This document shows, in pieces, positions 5,318-16,071 of a stretch of DNA of 16,566 nucleotides. This stretch comes from Bacillota bacterium (lineage in GTDB: Bacteria; Nitrospirota_A; Leptospirillia; Leptospirillales; JAMCRA01). Made by a program: the position numbers and the translations under genes. Where the stretch lies: the NCBI GenBank assembly GCA_023380285.1, contig JAMCRA010000011.1:1-16566 (forward strand), read 5' to 3'. How positions within the stretch are numbered: position 1 is the stretch's first letter; the number at the start of each line of letters is the position of its first letter. Below the pieces are notes generated by a model. The model saw only the letters and a program-made list of their open reading frames with translations. It was not told the origin of the DNA and did not search any database.

Positions 5318-5837
5318 ATCTCTTGTTTTACCCTATGATTTAACACCTGTCCCTCCAGGGACAATGGAAACCTTGAAAAATATCCTGCATGGAGAAGGTT
5401 CCACCCTTCACGTCTTTCATGTTTTGGATATTTATGAAGAAACCCCGATGGGATACCCTCTTCCCCCTGAATATTCCGCCGAGATGGAAAAAGTTGTTTG
5501 TCAGGAAGTCAAAAAGCTGGCAGACCTCTATCGCGCCGATGGCATAGAAACCACTGCAGGCGTTTACCGTGGAAGAGTTGACCGGACCATTATAGAGGTT
5601 GCACTCCAACAAAAAGCGGACGCTATTCTTCTTTTATCCCATGGCAAAGGAATTCTCGGACGCATCCTGCTTGGTTCTGCTTCCAACTCGGTACTTCACC
5701 ACTCTCCCCTTCCCGTCATTCTCCTGAAACCCGACGAAACTCGAAAAGACCTTCTCCGTAGCTTCACGGAAACCGATCCACCCGTTAACCTGATTGATAC
5801 CTTTGCCCGGTCAGACGCATCCGGGCAGGGCTTTTAA
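5301..5837 (+). CDS. Universal stress protein, UspA family
   Basis: This 178-residue protein has a single Usp domain. It has FKSLVLPYDLTP at the N-terminus, where the first beta strand ends in the conserved Asp (D13), then VFHVLDIYEETP (38-49). VDRTIIEVALQQKADAILLLS (93-113) leads into the nucleotide-binding loop HGKGILGRILLGSASNSVL (114-132), which keeps the G-x2-G...GS pattern of ATP-binding Usps. The domain closes with HSPLPVILLKP (134-144), and a 34-residue tail of unknown role follows. The family protects cells under stress, but the precise activity of most members is unknown. No clear Shine-Dalgarno lies before ATG 5301, and a short overlapping reading frame just upstream has a better one. 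The 160 nt before it (5141-5300) contain no confident promoter. Its stop overlaps the phoH start (TAATG). Confidence 0.93.
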   Translation: MSTPFKSLVLPYDLTPVPPGTMETLKNILHGEGSTLHVFHVLDIYEETPMGYPLPPEYSAEMEKVVCQEVKKLADLYRADGIETTAGVYRGRVDRTIIEVALQQKADAILLLSHGKGILGRILLGSASNSVLHHSPLPVILLKPDETRKDLLRSFTETDPPVNLIDTFARSDASGQGF

Positions 5838-6832
5838 TGGATCCCATACAAAAGACGTTCGATCTTCCCGAAGGGATTGACCACGCCTCTTTTTTTGGGG
5901 AGCTCAATCATCATCTCCGTCTCTTCGAACAGGCTTTTGGCATACGATTGACAGCCAGCGGACATCGTTTGACGGCAACCGGGGAGGAAAGCCGCGTTGT
6001 CCAGGGGGAAAAAGTGATCGGAGAGCTGGCATCCTTGATGGCGTCAGGATATTCCATCCGGGAAGAGGAGATTCGTCAGGCCATAAACTTGACGAAAACA
6101 ACTCCCCATATCACTCTTCGGGACCTCGTTTCAGAGTTTTTGCCCATCAACAGTCGCAAACGAGTCATTTTTCCAAAATCAGCCAACCAGCTTCATTACA
6201 TCCAGGCCATCAAGGCCCACGATATTGTTTTTGGAATTGGTCCCGCTGGGACCGGAAAAACTTATCTTGCGATGGCCATGGCCGTTTTCTACCTGCTCAA
6301 GCACTCTTTCCGACGTATCATCCTGGTAAGGCCCGCTGTCGAGGCCGGAGAAAAACTGGGATTCCTTCCAGGAGATATTGCAGAAAAGATCAACCCATAT
6401 CTTCGCCCACTCTACGACGCTCTGTTTGACATGATCGACGTCGACAAAGTGAACAGGATGATCGACAAGAGAGAAATAGAAATCGCTCCGTTGGCATTCA
6501 TGCGGGGAAGAACCCTGAATGATTCTTTTGTTATTCTGGATGAAGCGCAGAATGCCACCATTGAACAGATGAAAATGTTTCTGACCCGAATCGGTTTTAA
6601 CTCCAAGGCTGTGATCACGGGGGATGTCACACAGATTGACCTTCCACAAGGGCGAACCAGCGGACTCATCGAAGTCCAGAATATATTGAAAAACATATCC
6701 GGCATCGAATTTCTCTATTTTAACGAAGTGGATGTCGTCCGCCACCGGCTCGTTCAGGAAATCATCAAGGCCTACGAACGATATGAAAATCCAGAGAATG
6801 GCCAAAGATCACCTGCGGATAAATCCGCCTGA
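5837..6832 (+). CDS. phoH: PhoH-like P-loop ATPase (YbeZ type)
   Basis: This 331-residue protein has the length and motifs of PhoH/YbeZ. These are cytoplasmic ATPases that bind RNA and work with YbeY in ribosomal RNA maturation. The N-terminal region (1-110) is family-typical, with the GYSIREEEIRQAI segment. Walker A is GPAGTGKT (135-142), Walker B is FVILDEAQNAT (231-241), and between them LVRPAVEAGEKLGFLPGD (163-180) is a PhoH signature. VITGDVTQIDLPQG (259-272) is the usual post-Walker motif. ATG 5837 overlaps the usp stop by one base (TAATG), and CAGGG lies about 7 nt upstream, so translation is likely coupled. It is followed by the membrane HD phosphodiesterase and YbeY, the conserved gene order. 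Confidence 0.97.
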   Translation: MDPIQKTFDLPEGIDHASFFGELNHHLRLFEQAFGIRLTASGHRLTATGEESRVVQGEKVIGELASLMASGYSIREEEIRQAINLTKTTPHITLRDLVSEFLPINSRKRVIFPKSANQLHYIQAIKAHDIVFGIGPAGTGKTYLAMAMAVFYLLKHSFRRIILVRPAVEAGEKLGFLPGDIAEKINPYLRPLYDALFDMIDVDKVNRMIDKREIEIAPLAFMRGRTLNDSFVILDEAQNATIEQMKMFLTRIGFNSKAVITGDVTQIDLPQGRTSGLIEVQNILKNISGIEFLYFNEVDVVRHRLVQEIIKAYERYENPENGQRSPADKSA

Positions 6833-8369
6833 CCCGAGAAGCTTCAGGCTGACTCTTCTTTTGACAGGAACTGCTCTGTTTATGGGGGGAGGATTCTGGG
6901 ACCGGACTATTTTATCCGCTCTCCAGATCTCCTCCCTCCCATCATCCACTCCCTTTGCAAGAGAGTCCTTGTACAACAGTCTCTCTTTTCTGACAGGGGG
7001 GCTCCTGCTGGCGGTTTTTGTCTTTCTGGCAGCCCGTTCTATCCGGGAGGCTGTTGATCACTCTCCTGACATGTTTGAACGCATCAACCAGAAGTCCGTC
7101 AGCATCCTCTTTTTTTCTCTTCTTTGCGGATCATGGATTCTGACCGTTTTTCCGGCACCATGGCTCCTTGCATCAGGAAGATTCGGTGTGCCGCTGGAAA
7201 GCCGGGCAACCATTCTTGCGCTTCCAACCCTCATCGCAGCTGCACTTTCGACGCATCTCATCGGAAAACGGCAATCTGTCGCCCTGTCCCTTGTCACCGG
7301 CATCTCGATCAGTTTTCTGCCCCATTCTCAACCCTGGACTTCCGTATTCATTTTGATCGCAGGAATCCTTGCAGGTTTTTCAACAGCCCTTTTCCGGGGA
7401 CGCATCGGCTTTATCAAATCCGGCATACTCACCGGTCTTGTTCTCTTTCTGATGGAGTTGGCGGAACACCTGTACTGGAATTCTTCAAGTCCACTCGAGC
7501 CTCTGATCCTGTTTGTCACAGGAATCTCGGCAGGATTGTTATCCGCTCTTGGAGCGGTCTTTCTTCTCCCATTAATTGAACGGGGGTTCGGCGTTCTCTC
7601 GGACATGGCCCTGACCGAGCTTCTTGATGTCAATCACCCTCTTCTTCGGGAGTTTTACCTTAAAGCCCCCGGATCCTACCAGCACAGCATGTCCCTCGCC
7701 TACCTGTCGGAAGCCGCGGCAACATCCATCGGAGAAAATCCGAAACTCGCGCGTATCAGTGCCTACTTTCATGATATTGGAAAAATGGAACGACCCCAGT
7801 ATTTTATCGAAAACCAGGCCGCCTATAATCGTCATGAACTTTTGACCCCGAGAATGAGCGCGATCATCCTGATCGATCACGTCCGGCGCGGGATCGAAAT
7901 CGGACATCGATATCACTTGCCGCAGATCGTGATTGATGCAATTCCCGAACATCACGGGACCCGCCTCATGCAATTCTTTTACAGAAAAGCGTTCGAACAG
8001 GAATCGGAAGAGCACAAGATGGGACCGGATTCGGATTTTCGTTATCCCGGACCGAAGCCCCGATCGAGAATTACAGCGATCATCATGCTTGCTGATGCCG
8101 TCGAAGCAGCTGGACGGGTCTTGCAAAGGTCTTCTCCAACTCCCGCAAGAATCCAGGGGATGATCGAAGACGTATTTTCAGATATCATCAAAGATGGCCA
8201 GCTGGATGAATCTCCGCTCACTCTTGAAGAGATCGCCGTCATCAAGCGAACATTCACACAAATTCTCGTATCGATATACCACCACCGGATTCCATATCCC
8301 AAAGCAACCACTTCCGGACAGAAAAAAAATTCTCCGGAAAAGGTTCAGGGAGCTTTCAATGCCCGTTGA
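6783..8369 (+). CDS. Membrane HD-domain phosphodiesterase, 7TM-HD (YqfF/PgpH-like) without the large extracellular domain
   Basis: Numbered from ATG 6783, the 528-residue protein has one membrane helix (about 22-38), then only some 28 residues before seven further helices (about 65-85, 105-125, 142-160, 163-180, 186-204, 210-231, 240-265). A cytoplasmic HD domain follows. Its metal ligands are all present: H301 (YQHS), H330-D331 (YFHDIGK), H366, H390-H391 (PEHHG) and D438 (LADAVEA). In PgpH this fold hydrolyses cyclic di-AMP. That family normally carries about 250 extracellular residues (7TMR-HDED) between helices 1 and 2, absent here, which explains the short length. The start is uncertain: ATG 6732, 6783 and 6798 are all in frame inside the phoH end and none has a strong Shine-Dalgarno. 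It ends inside ybeY. The substrate is inferred from the family. Confidence 0.9.
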   Translation: MKIQRMAKDHLRINPPDPRSFRLTLLLTGTALFMGGGFWDRTILSALQISSLPSSTPFARESLYNSLSFLTGGLLLAVFVFLAARSIREAVDHSPDMFERINQKSVSILFFSLLCGSWILTVFPAPWLLASGRFGVPLESRATILALPTLIAAALSTHLIGKRQSVALSLVTGISISFLPHSQPWTSVFILIAGILAGFSTALFRGRIGFIKSGILTGLVLFLMELAEHLYWNSSSPLEPLILFVTGISAGLLSALGAVFLLPLIERGFGVLSDMALTELLDVNHPLLREFYLKAPGSYQHSMSLAYLSEAAATSIGENPKLARISAYFHDIGKMERPQYFIENQAAYNRHELLTPRMSAIILIDHVRRGIEIGHRYHLPQIVIDAIPEHHGTRLMQFFYRKAFEQESEEHKMGPDSDFRYPGPKPRSRITAIIMLADAVEAAGRVLQRSSPTPARIQGMIEDVFSDIIKDGQLDESPLTLEEIAVIKRTFTQILVSIYHHRIPYPKATTSGQKKNSPEKVQGAFNAR

Positions 8370-8868
8370 AATCGACAATCGCCAGAAAAAGTTTCCGGTG
8401 GACACCCTTGCGCTCTCTCTTCTGGCAAACGAGGCCCAAAAAACACTGGGAGAGGCCCAAAAAAATGTCACCATTACGTTCGTCAATAACCGTCGGATCC
8501 GGATTGTCAACCGGGAATATCGTGGAAAGAACAGGTCGACTGACGTCTTGTCTTTTTCCTACCCTTCTCCTCCCTTTCCCGACATTCCCTTTCCGGACGG
8601 AGAAATTCTCATCTCGACGGAAAAGGCTGAACGCCAGGCCCGCGAACAAAATATCCCGCTGGAAACAGAAATCGTCAACCTGATCATTCATGGCTTGTGT
8701 CATCTCGCCGGACATGACCACGAGACAGGACCGGAAGACGCCCTCCGTATGAAACACGCGGAACGGAAGATCGCCAAAACACTTCAGAAAGTGATTGTCA
8801 AACGGAATCTTTTTTCAATCGGACCACAAAACGCGCCGAGCCAGATTTTTGGAAAAATTCCCGACTGA
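8359..8868 (+). CDS. ybeY: Endoribonuclease YbeY (16S rRNA maturation)
   Basis: This 169-residue protein is a single-domain zinc-dependent endoribonuclease acting in 16S rRNA 3'-end maturation and ribosome quality control. The metal site is complete: H111, H115 and H121 in IIHGLCHLAGHDH. The preceding family motif VNREYRGKNRSTDVLSFSY (50-68) is clear. The last 20 residues (NLFSIGPQNAPSQIFGKIPD) extend past the usual end and are unrecognised. ATG 8359 is chosen over longer in-frame starts because AGGGAG lies 6 nt upstream and the family N-terminus begins here. The gene overlaps the HD phosphodiesterase stop by 11 nt, indicating translational coupling. phoH lies one gene upstream, matching the functional PhoH-YbeY pairing. 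Confidence 0.96.
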   Translation: MPVEIDNRQKKFPVDTLALSLLANEAQKTLGEAQKNVTITFVNNRRIRIVNREYRGKNRSTDVLSFSYPSPPFPDIPFPDGEILISTEKAERQAREQNIPLETEIVNLIIHGLCHLAGHDHETGPEDALRMKHAERKIAKTLQKVIVKRNLFSIGPQNAPSQIFGKIPD

Positions 8869-8898
8869 CGGAATTCTCAGAAGAAGGACAGGTTTCTC

Positions 8899-9828
8899 AT
8901 GAATATTCTGCAACGCTTGGGTGCCGGATTGAAAAAAACCCGGGAAAAACTGGGAAACAATCTTGCACAACTGTTCGGAAAAGAACGGTCTCCCCAGTTT
9001 TACGAAGAACTTGAGGACCTTCTGATCCTCTCTGATGTTGGCCCGGAACAAGCAACTCTTTTGATTCGGGATTTGAAAGATTGGGAAAAAAATTCGGGAA
9101 ATGGGACAAAAGGAGATCCACTGCTCTTTTTGGAAGAGAGAATAGCGAGTTTCTTTCCACTGAATCCTCCGGTGTGGGTCGAACAGCCTGACTGGAAGCC
9201 CGTTGTCATCCTGATGGTCGGCGTCAACGGGGTGGGCAAAACCACAACAACCGGAAAACTCGCGCACCGATTCCAGCAAGACGGGAAGTCCGTCATCCTG
9301 GGGGCCGCAGACACCTTTCGAGCGGCAGCGGTCCAGCAGTTGCGCCTCTGGGGAGAAAAACTGGAAATCCCTGTTGTTCACCAGAAGGAAGGTGCCGATC
9401 CGGCAGCGGTCGCTTTCGATACCGTCAAAGCAGCCCTGGCCCGAAAAGTGGATGTTGCCATCATCGATACGGCGGGAAGGCTCCAGACAAAACACAATCT
9501 GATGGCAGAACTTGGGAAGATCCATGGACTGGTCAAAAGGGAAATGGAAGACAGGCCCTTTGAAACACTGATCGTCCTGGACTCAACTCTTGGGCAGAAC
9601 ACTGTCAGCCAGATGGAACATTTCCGGAAAGCCATCCCGGTTTCCGGAATGATCCTCACCAAACTTGATGGCACCTCAAAAGGAGGGATTGTCGTCAGCC
9701 TGGCCCGAAAATTTCATCTTCCGGTCAGGTTTGTCGGGGTTGGAGAGGGAAAGGACGACCTTGTGGAATTCGATCCGGTTCTCTATGCACGGGCCCTTTT
9801 GAGACCGGAAGACTCTTCCCGGTTCTAG
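8899..9828 (+). CDS. ftsY: Signal recognition particle receptor FtsY
   Basis: This 309-residue SRP GTPase docks ribosome-SRP complexes at the inner membrane for co-translational insertion. The N-terminal helical N domain (about 1-95) is short, with no long acidic A domain, so membrane association would rely on the amphipathic start (MNILQRLGAGLKKTREKLG). The G domain has G1 GVNGVGKTTTT (108-118), the AADTFRAAAVQQL insertion-box motif (136-148), G3 DTAGR (190-194), G4 TKLD (254-257) in TKLDGTSKGG, and closing GVGEGKDDLVEF (280-291). All nucleotide-binding residues are present. It begins 30 nt after ybeY with AAGGACAGG before the ATG, so it is likely the last gene of the usp-phoH-HD-ybeY transcript. 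The stop TAG (9826-9828) shares CTAG with the convergent aroE stop. Confidence 0.97.
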   Translation: MNILQRLGAGLKKTREKLGNNLAQLFGKERSPQFYEELEDLLILSDVGPEQATLLIRDLKDWEKNSGNGTKGDPLLFLEERIASFFPLNPPVWVEQPDWKPVVILMVGVNGVGKTTTTGKLAHRFQQDGKSVILGAADTFRAAAVQQLRLWGEKLEIPVVHQKEGADPAAVAFDTVKAALARKVDVAIIDTAGRLQTKHNLMAELGKIHGLVKREMEDRPFETLIVLDSTLGQNTVSQMEHFRKAIPVSGMILTKLDGTSKGGIVVSLARKFHLPVRFVGVGEGKDDLVEFDPVLYARALLRPEDSSRF

Positions 9829-10715
9829 ACCATTTTGGGCATTTCACCTCCAAAGGAAAGGCTCCTTCCCAATTTTTTCCGGAGAGCCTCGGCCATGACG
9901 TCTCTCGGCGCCGACTGTCCCGTCCATATCTCAAATGACAAAGCACCCTGTTCGAGAAGCATTCGGAGGCCATCTTCCACGGGTCTCTTCAGGGACAACC
10001 CAACCTTCAGAAAGGATGTCGGCAGACCATCCGGCCGATAGGACAAGTCAAAAAATCCTTTGATACCGGAGCAGTCCACCCTGTCCAGAAGTGCAAACCT
10101 GTCCGGAAAAGCTTCCCGAGACAGAGCGTTGATCAGGACGTCGCATTCCCCAACTCCCTGATTGGACATCTCCTCAAGGGAAATCACCGATATCTCTTTC
10201 CTCGTATCCGGGGAAAAAAGAGAATCCAGAAGCCTATGTGCTCGATCAAGAGAACGATTGGCAATGGTTAAACGACGGAAACCAGACTCCCGGAGAGCAA
10301 AAAGCACACTTCTGACAGACCCTCCAGCCCCCAAAACCATCGGATGGGACACGTCTTTCTTTATTTTGCTTTGCAGAAAATGGCGAAATGCTTCCTGAAA
10401 TCCCCCGACATCGGTGTTCGAACCGAACCATCCGTCAGCTTTCCGGGAAACCGTATTGACGGCACCGACAATTGTTGAGATACGGTCCTTCCCCGCAACC
10501 AGTCCGGAAACCGCCTCCTTGTGGGGAATTGTCACGTTAAATCCTTCGACACCAAGAATTTCCATCGACTTCAAGGCGATCCCGATTTGATCCGGAGGAA
10601 TTTCAAAAGGCACATAAGCCGCGTCAAGGCCCAAGGATTCCATTGCCGCCTGCTGGAACAAAGGGGACAGGGAGTGGGAAACAGGATAACCAATCACTCC
10701 ATAGAGTTTTTTCAT
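9825..10715 (-). CDS. aroE: Shikimate dehydrogenase (NADP+)
   Basis: This 296-residue cytoplasmic enzyme reduces 3-dehydroshikimate to shikimate in aromatic amino-acid synthesis. Substrate-site motifs are SHSLSP (13-18), NVTIPHKE (60-67, catalytic K66), GAVNT (84-88) and NTDVGGF (100-106, catalytic D102). The Rossmann glycine loop is LGAGGSVRSV (128-137), followed by NRS (153-155). DLSYRPDG (223-230) and MLLEQGALSFEIWTG (252-266, Q256) close the active site. INALSREAF replaces the more usual INAT-GM segment, a mild divergence. The open frame reaches TTG 10793, but the family N-terminus (MKKLYGVIGYPVSHS) begins at ATG 10715. The Shine-Dalgarno there is poor (GAAAAGA). It lies 38 nt after a small membrane-protein gene on the same strand, and its stop overlaps that of ftsY. 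Confidence 0.95.
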   Translation of the reverse strand: MKKLYGVIGYPVSHSLSPLFQQAAMESLGLDAAYVPFEIPPDQIGIALKSMEILGVEGFNVTIPHKEAVSGLVAGKDRISTIVGAVNTVSRKADGWFGSNTDVGGFQEAFRHFLQSKIKKDVSHPMVLGAGGSVRSVLFALRESGFRRLTIANRSLDRAHRLLDSLFSPDTRKEISVISLEEMSNQGVGECDVLINALSREAFPDRFALLDRVDCSGIKGFFDLSYRPDGLPTSFLKVGLSLKRPVEDGLRMLLEQGALSFEIWTGQSAPRDVMAEALRKKLGRSLSFGGEMPKMV

Positions 10716-10753
10716 TCTTTTCGGAAGACTCTTGGGAAGAGAAAAAGCATGGA

Positions 10754-11008
10754 CTAGGCGATCTCCTTCAGAACGTACCGGAAAATGACCCAAAGAACGA
10801 TGCCGACCAGAAGGGTGACTCCGGCGATGAGGGCTGCTTTCGGACCGGCGAAAATCATATAGAAAAAGACGAAAAGAAGAAAAAGACCGAGGACAAAATA
10901 GACGAAAGCTCTTATCCAGTCCTTTCCAGTCATTTTTTCCTCATCGGCGGGGTCTGCCTTCCCCTCCGTTTCCTCCGACCGGGTATCGTGCACGCTTGCC
11001 GGATCCAT
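10754..11008 (-). CDS. Small two-helix membrane protein of unknown function
   Basis: The 84-residue protein has a polar, acidic first third (MDPASVHDTRSEETEGKADP) with no signal-like features. Two hydrophobic segments follow: AFVYFVLGLFLLFVFFYMIF (34-53) and ALIAGVTLLVGIVLWVIF (59-76), with a short GPKA turn between them. It ends RYVLKEIA. This predicts a hairpin inner-membrane protein with the N-terminus in the cytoplasm. AAGGAAGG lies 6 nt before ATG 11008, so it is a credible gene. It precedes aroE by 38 nt and they probably share a transcript. I do not recognise the family and no function can be assigned. Confidence 0.75.
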   Translation of the reverse strand: MDPASVHDTRSEETEGKADPADEEKMTGKDWIRAFVYFVLGLFLLFVFFYMIFAGPKAALIAGVTLLVGIVLWVIFRYVLKEIA

Positions 11009-11059
11009 TGGGAACCTTCCTTCTTGTAAAAATCGGTTAAGTCCTCTCCCCCGCGATAC

Positions 11060-11073
11060 CTTGTAGTATAATC
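11060..11073 (+). promoter_or_regulatory. Predicted promoter core (-10) for uvrC
   Basis: CTTGTAGTATAATC contains a perfect TATAAT at 11067-11072, giving a start near 11079 and a leader of about 25 nt. No good -35 hexamer is visible at 16-18 nt. The same 14-mer, with one difference, occurs at 1880-1893. Transcription from here would produce the uvrC-AAA transcript. Confidence 0.4.
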
Positions 11074-11094
11074 AACCCGTCCGCCCGAGAACAA
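11065..11094 (-). promoter_or_regulatory. Predicted promoter for the small membrane protein and aroE
   Basis: On the minus strand TTGTTC (11094-11089) and TATACT (11070-11065) are 18 nt apart. Transcription would start near 11058, about 50 nt upstream of the ATG at 11008. Its -10 element overlaps the TATAAT (11067-11072) read toward uvrC on the other strand, so the two directions would compete for polymerase. Confidence 0.45.
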
Positions 11095-11104
11095 TGGAGG
11101 GAAT

Positions 11105-12994
11105 GTGTCGAACCCAGAGAATTCGTCTGCGAATCTCCCTTTTTCATCCCTTGTCGAAGACCGTCTGAGAACTCTTCCGGAAGAGCCGGGTGTCTATCTC
11201 ATGAAGAGTGAAACCGGTGAGGTCCTCTATGTGGGAAAATCCCGAAGTCTTAAGGACCGGGTCCGCTCCTATTTCCAGGAGACGAGAGTCCGTTCCACGA
11301 GGATAGCCCTTCTCGTATCACGCGTTCGGGATCTCGAGATTATACGGACGAAAACAGAACTGGATGCCCTTATCCTCGAAAACACGCTGATCAAACGATA
11401 TCGCCCCCGATACAATGTCCTCCTCCGGGACGATAAAACATACCCCTACCTGAAATTCAGCTGGAACGACACTTACCCACGACTCACCGTCACGCGCCGG
11501 GTTCGAAACGACGGGAGTCTCTATTTTGGTCCCTACCCCAATCCCTCGGCCATGAAAGACACGCTCAGGCTTATTCGACGGACATTCCCGCTGGCGACCT
11601 GCACCATTCCTCTCGATAAACCAACACTTGAAAGGCCTTGCGTCGAATACCAGATCAAAAGATGCCTTGGCCCTTGCGTTGAGGGACTGACTACAGAAAC
11701 GGAATACCGGCAGGTGGCAATGGGCGTCCGCCTTTTTCTCCAGGGCAAGAGCAACGATCTTCTGTACCTACTGGAAAACGAGATGAAAGCACGCGCAAAA
11801 AACCTTGAGTTTGAAAAAGCCGCTGCCGTCCGCGACCGGTACAGGAATGTCCTTCAGGTTTTGGAAAAACATACCGTCTCCTTTCCCTTTCATCATCCGA
11901 TCGATGGACTCTATCTGGCACGCAGTGGCACGACGGCGGTCATGCTGGTGATGCATATACGAAACGGCCTTCTGATCGGCAAAGAGGAAGTTGAGCTCAA
12001 GAATACCGAAGAAGCTTCGGACGAAGAACTTCTCGTCGCCTTTCTCGAACAGTTCTACGGAAAAGAGTCCGCCTTCCTTCCGGGTGAAATTCTTCTTCCC
12101 GTTTCATTGCCCGAAGAAGACCTCATGACACTCTCCTGGATGTCCGAAAAGAAAGGAGAAGACCCCGTCCGGATAATCTCTCCAAAGAGAGGGGACAAAA
12201 AAATGATTCTGGATCTGGTCAGGGAAAATGCGGAAGAGGCGTTAAATGCCCGCGAAAAGAGATCGCTCAACTCGACAGAAGTACTCGACGAGGCCCGATC
12301 TCTCCTGAAAAGGGATCGTCCCCCGCGACTTCTATGCTGTGTGGACATCTCCAACACTGGAGACCTTCTTCCTGTCGCCTCTCTCGTCACCTTCCAGGAC
12401 GGGAAACCGGAAAAATCGCTTTACCGAAAGTTCCGGATTCGCTACGAAAAAGGCCAGGACGATTTCAAAATGTTGAGCGAGGTGATGGAGCGACAATACA
12501 GAGAAAATCCGCTCCCGGATCTTCTGGTAATCGATGGAGGACCGCTTCAGCTTGATGCCTGCGTCCGGACACTTGAGGAAATGGGGCATGACGATGCCAG
12601 GCGGCGTGTTGTATCCCTCGCCAAGGAACGAACGAACAAGAACAAGTCCGAACGAATCTTTTTTCCCGGACAGGATACGCCGCTCATTCTTCCCGGACAC
12701 CACCCGGTCACACATCTTCTTGTCCGCTTGCGCGATGAAGCCCACCGTTTCGCGATAAAGTATCACCGGACATTAAGAGAAGAGTATCTCACACACTCCC
12801 GGCTTCTGCATATTCCCGGCGTTGGGCCGGCAAGAGAAAAAAAACTTCTCCAGTCTTTCGGATCGGTAAAAAACCTTATGGAAGCAACGATCGAAGAGAT
12901 TGTGCAAAACGCTGGACTATCCGTGGCTCTGGCAACTTCAATCTACCACTCCCTCCGTGACAAACAGGATGCTCCGCCCGGGAGTTCGTCGTGA
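11105..12994 (+). CDS. uvrC: UvrABC excision nuclease subunit C
   Basis: This 629-residue protein makes the dual incisions in nucleotide excision repair after UvrA/UvrB damage recognition. The N-terminal GIY-YIG nuclease is GVYLM...LYVGKSRSLKDRVRSYF (29-57), with E92 in LENTLIK. A Cys-rich segment RPCVEYQIKRCLGPC (177-191) follows. The UvrB-binding UVR motif is LEFEKAAAVRDRYRNVL (234-250). The C-terminal RNase H-like nuclease has D414 (CVDISNT), D477 (LVIDGGPLQL) and H547 (RDEAHRFAI). Helix-hairpin-helix repeats end the protein (HIPGVGPAREKKLLQSFGS, 569-587). All catalytic residues look intact. The start is GTG 11105, with GGAGGG only 3 nt upstream. An ATG two bases earlier is out of frame. 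Its stop overlaps the next gene by GTGA. Confidence 0.97.
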   Translation: MSNPENSSANLPFSSLVEDRLRTLPEEPGVYLMKSETGEVLYVGKSRSLKDRVRSYFQETRVRSTRIALLVSRVRDLEIIRTKTELDALILENTLIKRYRPRYNVLLRDDKTYPYLKFSWNDTYPRLTVTRRVRNDGSLYFGPYPNPSAMKDTLRLIRRTFPLATCTIPLDKPTLERPCVEYQIKRCLGPCVEGLTTETEYRQVAMGVRLFLQGKSNDLLYLLENEMKARAKNLEFEKAAAVRDRYRNVLQVLEKHTVSFPFHHPIDGLYLARSGTTAVMLVMHIRNGLLIGKEEVELKNTEEASDEELLVAFLEQFYGKESAFLPGEILLPVSLPEEDLMTLSWMSEKKGEDPVRIISPKRGDKKMILDLVRENAEEALNAREKRSLNSTEVLDEARSLLKRDRPPRLLCCVDISNTGDLLPVASLVTFQDGKPEKSLYRKFRIRYEKGQDDFKMLSEVMERQYRENPLPDLLVIDGGPLQLDACVRTLEEMGHDDARRRVVSLAKERTNKNKSERIFFPGQDTPLILPGHHPVTHLLVRLRDEAHRFAIKYHRTLREEYLTHSRLLHIPGVGPAREKKLLQSFGSVKNLMEATIEEIVQNAGLSVALATSIYHSLRDKQDAPPGSSS

Positions 12995-15900
12995 TCCTCA
13001 GCATCATGATGGTCCTTGCCGGCGTCGGCTGGGTGATCGCAACCTCCTTTTTTCGGTCGGTCGTCGATCCCTGGTTTAACGCATACCCTCTGTTGTCGGC
13101 ACTCGTCATGGCGACGGTTCTCCTCACCTATGCAACGATCCTTCTCCTTGCCGGCAGCAATTTTGGAAAGCCCCTTCCGGAAAAAAAGAAGGGGAAGATC
13201 CCTTTTTCCGCCGCCCCTCCGTTGTATTACATTCTTCAATGGTCTCTTGTCGGGGCCATTTTCATTCTTTCAGGATTCTTTACCATCGGCATGATGCCTT
13301 ATCTGTCTGGCTTCCTGTGGCTGACCGGGACCATCACCATGCTTTCCCAGTTTCTCTTCCTGATGATTCCCGGCAACTTTCGACAGGAAACCGGGCCCGG
13401 CAAAGTCGACCTGATTCCCAATCGGCTTCGGCTCAAGGATCAGGCCTATCATTTTTGGGACACATGCATCATGGCCGGCGGGTTCTTTCTTGTCACCGGT
13501 ACCCTGCTAAAGCCCATTTCCATCGTTGCCGGACTTCTTTCGATCGGAACCGGCCTTTCCTGGCTTCTCGGAGCTGTCTCCTTCTCTTTGGTCAGCACCT
13601 TTCATCTGTCGGGGGCGTTTCGGAAAAAAACGCCGCCCTCTTCCTACAGTGTTCCGGAAGATACGCTTTCCGTCTTTCCCAGGAATAATCCGACCAGAAT
13701 GGCCCTGATCGAAGCCTACTCGGCTCATTTGAGCGCCCGGTCCCTCTTCCGGTCGCAAAAAAACGGAATTCTCCTGTGGGGACCTTCCGTCAAGGCCAAC
13801 CATATTTTTGCACGAGCCCTGGCCGGAGAGTCAGGAAGGGCCTACATGACGTTCGAACTCGCTTCTCTAAGGGGACTCTCTCTCTCTACCGCGGAACACG
13901 AGCTGCGGAATACTCTCTACAAGATTCATCTTTACAAACCGGTCCTTCTGCATATCACCGACTTCGAAGCTTCCGTCTCTTCCCTCTCGCAACCAGAGAG
14001 AGAAAGTTTGAAAAAAATACTTCTTCGTCTTCTGATGAACAAACACGCCCTGGTTGTCATGAACGCACATCAGATCGACGACATTCCGGAAGAGTTCAAA
14101 ACTCCACCGGTGGTGCATTGGGTCATCGGAACAGGAGAAGCCGATACGCCAACCCGAACAACATTCCTCCGGCTCGCCCTGCGGGAAGTCGCCCGTCAAA
14201 ACGAGATTCTTCCCGGGCAGGTGCCCCTTCTGACCCTCGACATGATCGACGGGTATGACTTGTTCAAATTGGCAGAGATGATGGAAGGATTTTCCCCTGA
14301 GGATATCGATGACGTTCTTCTGCGGAGCATCAAAAGTGCCCGTTCCCTCCGAAGATCTCTCCGTCAGCTGGACATCGACGTTTCCATTCGTCGGAAGATG
14401 CAAGGCTGGCAGGATCCGACACTGGAACCCATGGAAGCTGTCCGTGCCCGGCTCACCGAAGAAGCCATTGCTCCTGCGCTCATCATCAACGCTTCTGAAA
14501 AGATTCTGAAACAAAAGCGCCACACGAGCGAGTCCTTGCTTATTGTGGGAAAATCTCCAAGTTTGCGACAGAAGCTCGCACAGACCCTTGCGCAAAGAGA
14601 AAACTATCACTTCGCTTCCGTTTCCCAGAAGGAGTTTTCCCGGGATAGCCTAGGCACTTTCCGCAACTTCGTCATTCAGAACAAAAAACTCCGGCCGGCC
14701 GTTCTTTTTGTCGACCCTCTTGAAGTTCTCTTTCCCAGGGTCCAGCTTTCCCATTTCAGTTATCACGGCGAAATTTACAACCAGAAGGTGATCGAGCTTT
14801 CCCAGGTTCTCCAGGAGCGACAATTCTGGCTCATCTGCGGGACATCCGGGATCAACGATATCGATCCCATGATCCTCCGGAAGTTTTCACGCGTGATCGA
14901 GATCGGAGACATCCAGAAAGAATTTCTTCAGGATGTTGAAGCCTACGCCATGGAAAAGCTACTGGAGGGATTCTCGTCGGATAATATTGATTTTTCACGC
15001 TTCCATCTCTTTACCGGGTCCTCCCCATTCATGGAAAACTCTTCGGACGACAAAAATCAAACAGACAAATCCACGTTCGCCCTCACTCTTCCGGAAGAGC
15101 TCCCACCGCCTATCCGGGATTACTTTGGGCGGGAATCCCTACAAAACGAAATCCTGGCAACTCTTGAGACAGGGCGGCTGAAAATCCGAAAGGACGGGTC
15201 TGCCCTCAGCGGAACCTTCTTCTTTTTGGGCCCGCCCCAGAGTGGCCGAAAGTTCCTGGCTGAAGCTCTATCCAGACAGGTCTACAAGAAACCAGAGGCT
15301 TTTGTGTACCGGGATATGAGTCTGTTTGACGAGCTTTTTTTCGCAGAACAATTCCTGAAAAAATCCGCGTCCCCGGCACCGACGAACCCTCCCGTTCCTG
15401 ATGATCTGTGGGAAGTCTTCCATCAGGACCCCAGACGTCTCCTCTATATGGACAATGTGGAAAAAGCACATCCCAGCCTCTGGAACGCTCTTTTACCGGT
15501 TCTCAAGACCGGTCGCCTTTCGTGGGGGGAAAAGACCAGAGATATTTCCGACAGTATTTTTGTCCTTGCCTCAACATTGTTCTCTCCCCAGGACTTTGCT
15601 CAGGTAGAGCCCTGGAGCCGTCCCGACGTCATGATTCAGGCCGTCCGGAACAACAACAGAAGATTGGCCTATCTCCCCCTTTTTCAGCCGCCGTTCCTCC
15701 AGCACGTCGACCTGATCTTGCCCTTTCCCGAATACTCCACGGAGGACATTCACACCATTCTTCGGCAGACAGCGACGAAAATTCTGCATGATTTCTCCCG
15801 CAATATTCCCTTTCCGGGGACCCTTTCGGTTGAACCAGGTCTCTTTGAGCAGCTGACGTCAAAACTCGATATTTCCCGGCGCGGCATGGATGGTCTCGAT

Positions 15901-16071
15901 CGAAAGCTCCAGTCCCAGTTTCTCCCCGCCCTGACTAAAATCCGAGCAACTTTTGAAAACGAACCGGGTCCGCACGACTTTCTTCTCTCCTGGGACGGAA
16001 GGGGCATATCCGCCGTGACGGTCAGTCCTTCGGAACAAAAAACCGAAGAAGAGGCTGTCGTATCTCCTTAA
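12991..16071 (+). CDS. Membrane-anchored protein with three tandem degenerate AAA+ modules
   Basis: This 1026-residue protein has about six membrane helices in residues 1-205 and then a large, presumably cytoplasmic region. Module 1 (about 235-460) has a broken P-loop, GPSVKAN (264-270), a weak Walker B (ITDFE, D324) and an FtsH-like lid (GFSPEDIDDVL, 433-443). Module 2 (about 490-675) resembles FtsH/VCP-type AAA: GKSPSLRQ (520-527) lacks the P-loop lysine, LFVDPLE (572-578) has Pro for the Walker B Glu, and INDIDPMILRKFSRVIEI (621-638) keeps the Arg-rich box. Module 3 (about 705-985) resembles the ClpA/ClpB second AAA: GPPQSGRK (747-754) has Arg at the lysine position, and LLYMDNVEKAHPSLW (817-831) has Asn for the Walker B Glu. 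PFLQHVD has His for the Arg finger, and GMDGLDRKL replaces sensor-2 GAR. It is probably a non-hydrolysing scaffold or assembly partner. GTG 12991 overlaps the uvrC stop, with GGGAG 6 nt upstream. Confidence 0.9.
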   Translation: MILSIMMVLAGVGWVIATSFFRSVVDPWFNAYPLLSALVMATVLLTYATILLLAGSNFGKPLPEKKKGKIPFSAAPPLYYILQWSLVGAIFILSGFFTIGMMPYLSGFLWLTGTITMLSQFLFLMIPGNFRQETGPGKVDLIPNRLRLKDQAYHFWDTCIMAGGFFLVTGTLLKPISIVAGLLSIGTGLSWLLGAVSFSLVSTFHLSGAFRKKTPPSSYSVPEDTLSVFPRNNPTRMALIEAYSAHLSARSLFRSQKNGILLWGPSVKANHIFARALAGESGRAYMTFELASLRGLSLSTAEHELRNTLYKIHLYKPVLLHITDFEASVSSLSQPERESLKKILLRLLMNKHALVVMNAHQIDDIPEEFKTPPVVHWVIGTGEADTPTRTTFLRLALREVARQNEILPGQVPLLTLDMIDGYDLFKLAEMMEGFSPEDIDDVLLRSIKSARSLRRSLRQLDIDVSIRRKMQGWQDPTLEPMEAVRARLTEEAIAPALIINASEKILKQKRHTSESLLIVGKSPSLRQKLAQTLAQRENYHFASVSQKEFSRDSLGTFRNFVIQNKKLRPAVLFVDPLEVLFPRVQLSHFSYHGEIYNQKVIELSQVLQERQFWLICGTSGINDIDPMILRKFSRVIEIGDIQKEFLQDVEAYAMEKLLEGFSSDNIDFSRFHLFTGSSPFMENSSDDKNQTDKSTFALTLPEELPPPIRDYFGRESLQNEILATLETGRLKIRKDGSALSGTFFFLGPPQSGRKFLAEALSRQVYKKPEAFVYRDMSLFDELFFAEQFLKKSASPAPTNPPVPDDLWEVFHQDPRRLLYMDNVEKAHPSLWNALLPVLKTGRLSWGEKTRDISDSIFVLASTLFSPQDFAQVEPWSRPDVMIQAVRNNNRRLAYLPLFQPPFLQHVDLILPFPEYSTEDIHTILRQTATKILHDFSRNIPFPGTLSVEPGLFEQLTSKLDISRRGMDGLDRKLQSQFLPALTKIRATFENEPGPHDFLLSWDGRGISAVTVSPSEQKTEEEAVVSP
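13207..13225 (+). repeat. 19-bp sequence repeated exactly at the right edge of the window
   Basis: TCCGCCGCCCCTCCGTTGT occurs here, encoding SAAPPL in the AAA-like protein, and again at 16548-16566 as the last bases of the window. A 19-bp exact repeat is unlikely by chance in a window this size. Confidence 0.9.

Follow-up and report, generated by a model that had tools for sequence, protein, structure and literature searches.

Degenerate AAA+ domains usually adjoin active ones, and ChlD of magnesium chelatase, a soluble protein, has a known active partner, ChlI. Structural or regulatory roles for such domains are described in several papers (PMC3789969, PMC8042743, PMC11154593). The AAA+ domain of ChlD has an allosteric role according to PMC3789969, and the type VII secretion proteins EccC and EssC are presented in PMC11154593 as membrane-anchored chains with tandem ATPase domains, several of which are degenerate; in the domain of unknown function (DUF) of EccC5 an extended helix takes the place of the P-loop. 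Here we describe a gene found at positions 12991-16071 of the forward strand of contig JAMCRA010000011.1 (the window, that is, the whole analysed stretch of 16,566 nucleotides). It is an open reading frame (ORF) of 1026 amino acids with a GTG start, and its product is a predicted membrane-anchored protein with three degenerate AAA+ modules. We propose, with a probability of about 0.5, that it is a lineage-specific, membrane-anchored, non-hydrolysing pseudo-AAA+ scaffold. As expected of a degenerate AAA+ scaffold that works like ChlD, FtsHi or the DUF of EccC, the fold is kept, the catalytic residues are lost family-wide and the gene is under selection. EccC differs in having FtsK-like domains, of which D1 is active (PMC11154593), whereas AAA and Clp folds, all three altered, are found here.

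Three AAA+ folds with altered motifs

The members of the family were collected in two protein searches, each of about 5.8 billion proteins with about 8000 candidates scored, so that absence elsewhere remains unproven. The first search yielded 19 family proteins (P0002-P0020; 35-100% identity), 1021-1033 amino acids long except for one annotated as partial. Among the matches listed in the profile search there were 22 family proteins, seven of them new (P0024-P0030), and four earlier members (P0014-P0017) were missed. Taken together, 26 family proteins were obtained, followed by AAA+ proteins with partial coverage. These 26 proteins, the window and 20 genome loci, minus one fragment and four exact duplicates, make up 42 distinct members that form 30 clusters at 97% identity. 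Their length is nearly constant (1021-1034 amino acids in 41 of the 42), the exception being P0020, of 933 amino acids and annotated as partial.

Each module has an alpha/beta AAA+ core, and the predicted models were matched to solved AAA+ cores. Module 1 (residues 215-485; 13633-14445, on the forward strand like all features of the gene) appears to be a classical AAA module with an FtsH- or proteasome-ATPase-like fold and a lid, module 2 (residues 486-680; 14446-15030) has a CDC48/p97-like AAA core, and module 3 (residues 700-1000; 15088-15990) a ClpB/ClpC second-domain fold. The models support these assignments, with structural match lists that leave room for other families. The Pfam model PF00004 matched module 2 (45.6 bits for the whole protein, cut-off 21.2), most strongly over 529-639 and also in a second stretch, and PF07724 matched module 3 (47.7 against 27); a lid model at 423-442 stayed under its cut-off (11.8 against 27.2). 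As for a lid in module 2, the structural matches to its model stop at model residue 154 of 210. Structure prediction and profile searches upheld the FtsH/VCP character that a first-pass annotation of this DNA had given to modules 1 and 2, as well as the ClpA/ClpB second-domain character of module 3, and no module was predicted to have a fold other than AAA+. The ORF coordinates and the approximate number of six membrane helices were also borne out.

Motif positions were read from the 42-member alignment once the profile of each module had been aligned with CDC48, FtsH and Clp proteins, and all the motifs quoted in the first-pass annotation are present in the window protein. In module 1, the degenerate P-loop GPSVKANH (at residue 264; 13780-13803) runs into a predicted helix that begins at residue 267, three residues past the first glycine. 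The P-loop lysine is missing from all members (arginine in 34), and at Walker B (D324-F325 in the window protein; 13960-13965) the first residue is aspartate in 21 and asparagine in 21, and the glutamate is replaced in 42/42 (tyrosine in 40, phenylalanine in two). Module 2 has lost its P-loop (GKSPSLRQ at 520; 14548-14571), with arginine instead of lysine in every member. Its Walker B, D575-P576 (14713-14718), keeps the aspartate in 42/42 and has proline in place of glutamate in 42/42. The arginine at the first Arg-finger position, R630 (14878-14880), is also present in 42/42. In the P-loop of module 3 (GPPQSGRK at 747; 15229-15252), the lysine is conserved in 35 members and is arginine in seven, and the following serine or threonine was found in none. 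Walker B of this module, D821-N822 (15451-15456), has aspartate in all the members and no glutamate (asparagine in 41, histidine in one). Arginine is absent from its Arg-finger position, H905 in the motif FLQHVD (15703-15705), in 42/42, and from sensor 2 (GMD in the window protein, D967), where one member is gapped; one member has an arginine one place before. The seven sequences with arginine in the module 3 P-loop, including the window, form a single clade with support 1.0 (FastTree), and therefore the clade of the window degenerated furthest.

The combination of Walker A GxxxxGK[ST] with Walker B hhhhDE occurs at the aligned positions in none of the three modules of any member. A pattern control recovered both Walker motifs in 27 of 28 comparators and in 0/42 members. 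Relatives with intact motifs, which would have contradicted the first-pass annotation, did not turn up in the searches run (about 8000 candidates scored per protein search). Stray patterns consist of an out-of-register [AG]x4GK[ST] string in P0006 and FLLDE near residue 401 in four members (P0019, P0026, L019 and L022). Pore-loop patterns were found in two, zero and zero of the 42 members for modules 1, 2 and 3, respectively. The two are an aromatic-x-G string in the pore region of module 1, and no member has a GYVG-type pore loop in module 3. Motif degeneration is a property of the whole family. The Walker B glutamate is lost everywhere, and to the first-pass annotation we add the retention of R630 in all 42 members and of the module 3 lysine in 35 of them, the window not included.

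The retention of the AAA+ fold without catalytic residues or canonical pore-loop motifs suggests, as a strong inference, that the protein by itself probably neither hydrolyzes ATP nor threads substrates. Lack of hydrolysis is strongly suggested by the sequences. The same does not go for an inability to bind nucleotide in the majority of homologues, since GxxxxGK (35/42) and the Walker B aspartate (42/42) are retained in module 3. The records, where named, are called "AAA family ATPase" or "putative ATP-dependent Clp protease", names against which the motifs speak.

Predicted membrane helices ahead of a classical AAA module are reminiscent of FtsH, which has two membrane helices, but HEXXH occurs in 0/42 members and there was no match to PF01434 (M41). 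Unlike FtsH, plant FtsHi and Ycf2-FtsHi, the protein has three AAA+ modules, all without catalytic residues, and six membrane helices. Modules 1 and 2, as two consecutive classical AAA modules, match CDC48/p97 by sequence profile and fold; however, the score against TIGR01243 (NCBIfam) was 26.7 bits, compared with a cut-off of 802.65, no N domain was recognized in the Pfam scan, the Walker motifs are lost, and a membrane anchor and a third, Clp-type module are present. With the ClpB model TIGR03346, whose cut-off is 1232.1 bits, the protein scored 53.9 bits, and only the stretch 735-928 was matched. Module 3 departs from the ClpB/ClpC second domain in having DN for DE and in lacking the Arg finger, sensor 2 and the pore loop, and it belongs to a membrane-anchored protein.

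Membrane domain, distribution and selection

The N-terminal residues 1-206 (12991-13608) form a six-helix membrane domain, with the N terminus and the AAA+ modules predicted inside. Six hydrophobic segments were found within the first 215 residues of all seven members checked (the window protein and six others), P0012 having an extra, weak seventh segment inside module 3, and the structure model has six long helices within residues 2-206. The domain has no Pfam match and was not found outside the family in the searches run; a protein search with it produced five proteins of 165-248 amino acids that are apparently pieces of members. Over the 42 members, the loop between helices 2 and 3 is strongly positive (mean lysine plus arginine, K+R, 5.7; mean aspartate plus glutamate, D+E, 0.3) and loops 1-2, 3-4 and 5-6 have few charges. 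Therefore, the three AAA+ modules are predicted to be cytoplasmic.

Of 295 genomes sampled from the phylum of genome G002, 21 had a match to a profile of modules 1 and 2, one match each (E <= 1e-20), and a membrane-domain profile found the same 21 among 148 genomes (E <= 0.001), the match in G021 being in two pieces because its contigs split the gene. When the full profile was compared with 100 relatives of G002, full-length or contig-split matches were again located in these 21. As for the other 79, G073 had no match and in the rest the matches listed fall within module 3 (profile positions 704-988) and look like ClpB/ClpC. The family is apparently confined to one lineage, defined here by possession of the gene and recognized from the tree, the named records L001 (Leptospirillum sp.) and L002 (Nitrospirae bacterium), and the protein record names. 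Named members belong to Leptospirillum, "Leptospirales" or Nitrospirae, and the name "Leptospirales bacterium" of two records is probably a slip in naming.

Purifying selection acts on the gene. The ratio of nonsynonymous to synonymous substitution rates (dN/dS, Nei-Gojobori) was 0.062-0.105 for the whole gene over eight pairs, the most distant of which are close to saturation at synonymous sites. Module 2, at 0.023-0.061, had the smallest ratio of the four regions in all eight pairs. Among 20-residue blocks, conservation is highest in 581-600 (0.91) and 461-480 (0.86). The former lies in the strongly conserved stretch DPLExLFPRVQLSxFxYHGEIYNQKVIELSQ that starts at Walker B of module 2 (residues 575-605; 14713-14805), a supposed interaction surface, and the latter in a conserved stretch with which the lid of module 1 ends (residues 455-480; 14353-14430).

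A proposed scaffold and its alternatives

In the scaffold that we propose, the six helices would anchor the protein in the inner membrane and hold the three AAA+ modules in the cytoplasm. Self-assembly through these modules seems most likely, and the product would be a fixed platform for docking beneath the membrane, residues 575-605 and 455-480 being candidate binding or inter-subunit surfaces. Module 3 of the ancestor probably bound nucleotide without hydrolyzing it, as a structural or sensing site, and the clade of the window would then have lost even the P-loop lysine. Since evolution kept the altered engines, a fixed platform rather than a motor is probable. A more specific history, in which the ancestor shared by the lineage had already lost hydrolysis and pore threading from all three modules and the protein was kept as a membrane-bound structural hub without an active module, is put forward tentatively.

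Several observations weigh against the scaffold. The charge rule is followed weakly at loop 4-5, which is balanced (mean K+R 2.8, D+E 2.8) and gives no support to the topology, and after helix 6 (2.0 and 1.5). The inter-module arrangement of the structure model is uncertain, at a predicted template modelling score (pTM) of 0.40, so that stacking and ring formation are putative. The neighbourhood of the 18 loci compared (the window, L028-L043 and L001) shows no evident partner gene. Finally, the conservation of GxxxxGK and the Walker B aspartate in module 3, together with that of R630, could reflect nucleotide-dependent roles or a hetero-ring.

A hetero-ring is the basis of the main rival explanation, which we consider rather unlikely: the protein would share a mixed ring with FtsH, ClpB/ClpC or a proteasomal ATPase, each an active AAA+ protein of its own cell. 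As a regulatory pseudo-subunit it would give such a partner structure and perhaps the Arg finger R630, tuning the activity of the partner. The models would be ChlD in magnesium chelatase or the role proposed for FtsHi with FtsH12. R630 is the best hint of such a ring, but the spacing of the Arg-finger pair around it is shorter than usual, a partner with a single module would not match a chain with three modules in tandem and six membrane helices, the compared loci show no genetically linked partner, and the co-occurrence of FtsH is uninformative since FtsH is near-universal.

Docking to the proteasome was considered and dropped: PF00227 matched in 21/21 genomes, but this family also covers HslV, and the C-terminal HbYX tail of proteasome activators was found in 0/42 members. 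A crude [LIV]G[FLY] scan for a ClpP docking loop after residue 700 in three members gave one stray match. Of the scaffold suggested in the first-pass annotation, the three AAA+ folds, the predicted anchor and the family-wide loss of residues for hydrolysis agree with our results; its further suggestion of capping an active ring or presenting substrates to a protease stays conjectural. No partner is evident beside the gene, and the M41 site and the HbYX tail are each at 0/42. Separately, several leptospirilla apparently have proteasome-type genes at two loci, both close to a gene for an AAA ATPase of about 580-650 amino acids; those of G009 are at about 73-77 kb of contig C19 and about 160-164 kb of contig C12 (L056, L065). 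Pupylation enzymes are reported in L. ferrooxidans (PMC3511204).

We regard as improbable a nucleotide-gated switch, where module 3 would bind ATP or ADP without hydrolysis and shift the conformation of the platform. The module 3 residues listed above fit this idea, as does the start of a helix after the P-loop glycines, predicted for module 3 only. However, the clade of the window (7/42) swapped the lysine for arginine yet conserves the protein, the serine or threonine after the lysine is missing in 42/42, and the sensor 2 arginine is missing in 41/41 members with a residue there. An active ATPase that uses non-canonical residues could rely on the Walker B aspartates of modules 2 and 3, present in 42/42, but it is very improbable with the catalytic glutamate gone from all three modules in 42/42 and module 3 without Arg finger and sensor 2. 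Motif loss alone would fit a decaying or chimeric pseudogene, a reading rejected on account of the constant length and the low dN/dS.

Gene neighbourhood and significance

Directly upstream of the gene lies uvrC (11105-12994, forward strand), whose TGA overlaps the GTG start (GTGA) and whose product was identified as UvrC by TIGR00194 (543 bits). The same adjacency was found in 16 of the 18 loci; in the other two, L033 and L036, the ORF picker lengthened the frame. On the 3' side, eight loci have thiC, counting the partial frame of the window, which was read by eye (a family search at L032 backs the ThiC identity), and the other ten a convergent unnamed membrane gene. On the reverse strand, an 84-amino acid frame for a small membrane protein (10754-11008) has no NCBIfam match and has relatives beside uvrC in 14 of the 18 loci. 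The gene order phoH, HDIG protein, ybeY, ftsY, aroE (reverse strand) and uvrC (5837-12994) is partly preserved across the loci compared. Within it, at 6732-8868, the frames of the HDIG protein and ybeY (8194-8868) share 176 bases as listed, and the true start of ybeY probably lies further inside its frame.

Among the papers listed in searches of Creative Commons-licensed articles in PubMed Central, no title or abstract opening describes this protein, and passages of papers on L. ferriphilum (PMC5772234) and acidophile proteostasis (PMC10490939) do not single it out. The mixed ancestry in one chain, considered unusual in the first-pass annotation, is not unique: the metagenomic chains P0040 and P0041 each have one AAA+ module of Clp type and one of FtsH type, which weakened the idea of a unique Clp/FtsH mixture. 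In P0041 both modules are intact and an M41 domain is also present; PF02861 (ClpN) appears in its precomputed list but was unmatched in the family scan run here. In the sequence of P0040, the Clp-type module has DQ where DE is expected. P0041 differs from the pseudo-AAA+ family in its opposite module order, its intact Walker motifs and its M41 domain. The family is therefore new but its theme is known, because degenerate AAA+ domains and Clp/FtsH fusions already exist.

Leptospirilla are important iron oxidizers in acidic, metal-rich waters. If the scaffold is real, they would possess an unrecognized core membrane complex, and a conserved chain of three altered modules with a private membrane domain would show the AAA+ fold turned entirely to architectural use.
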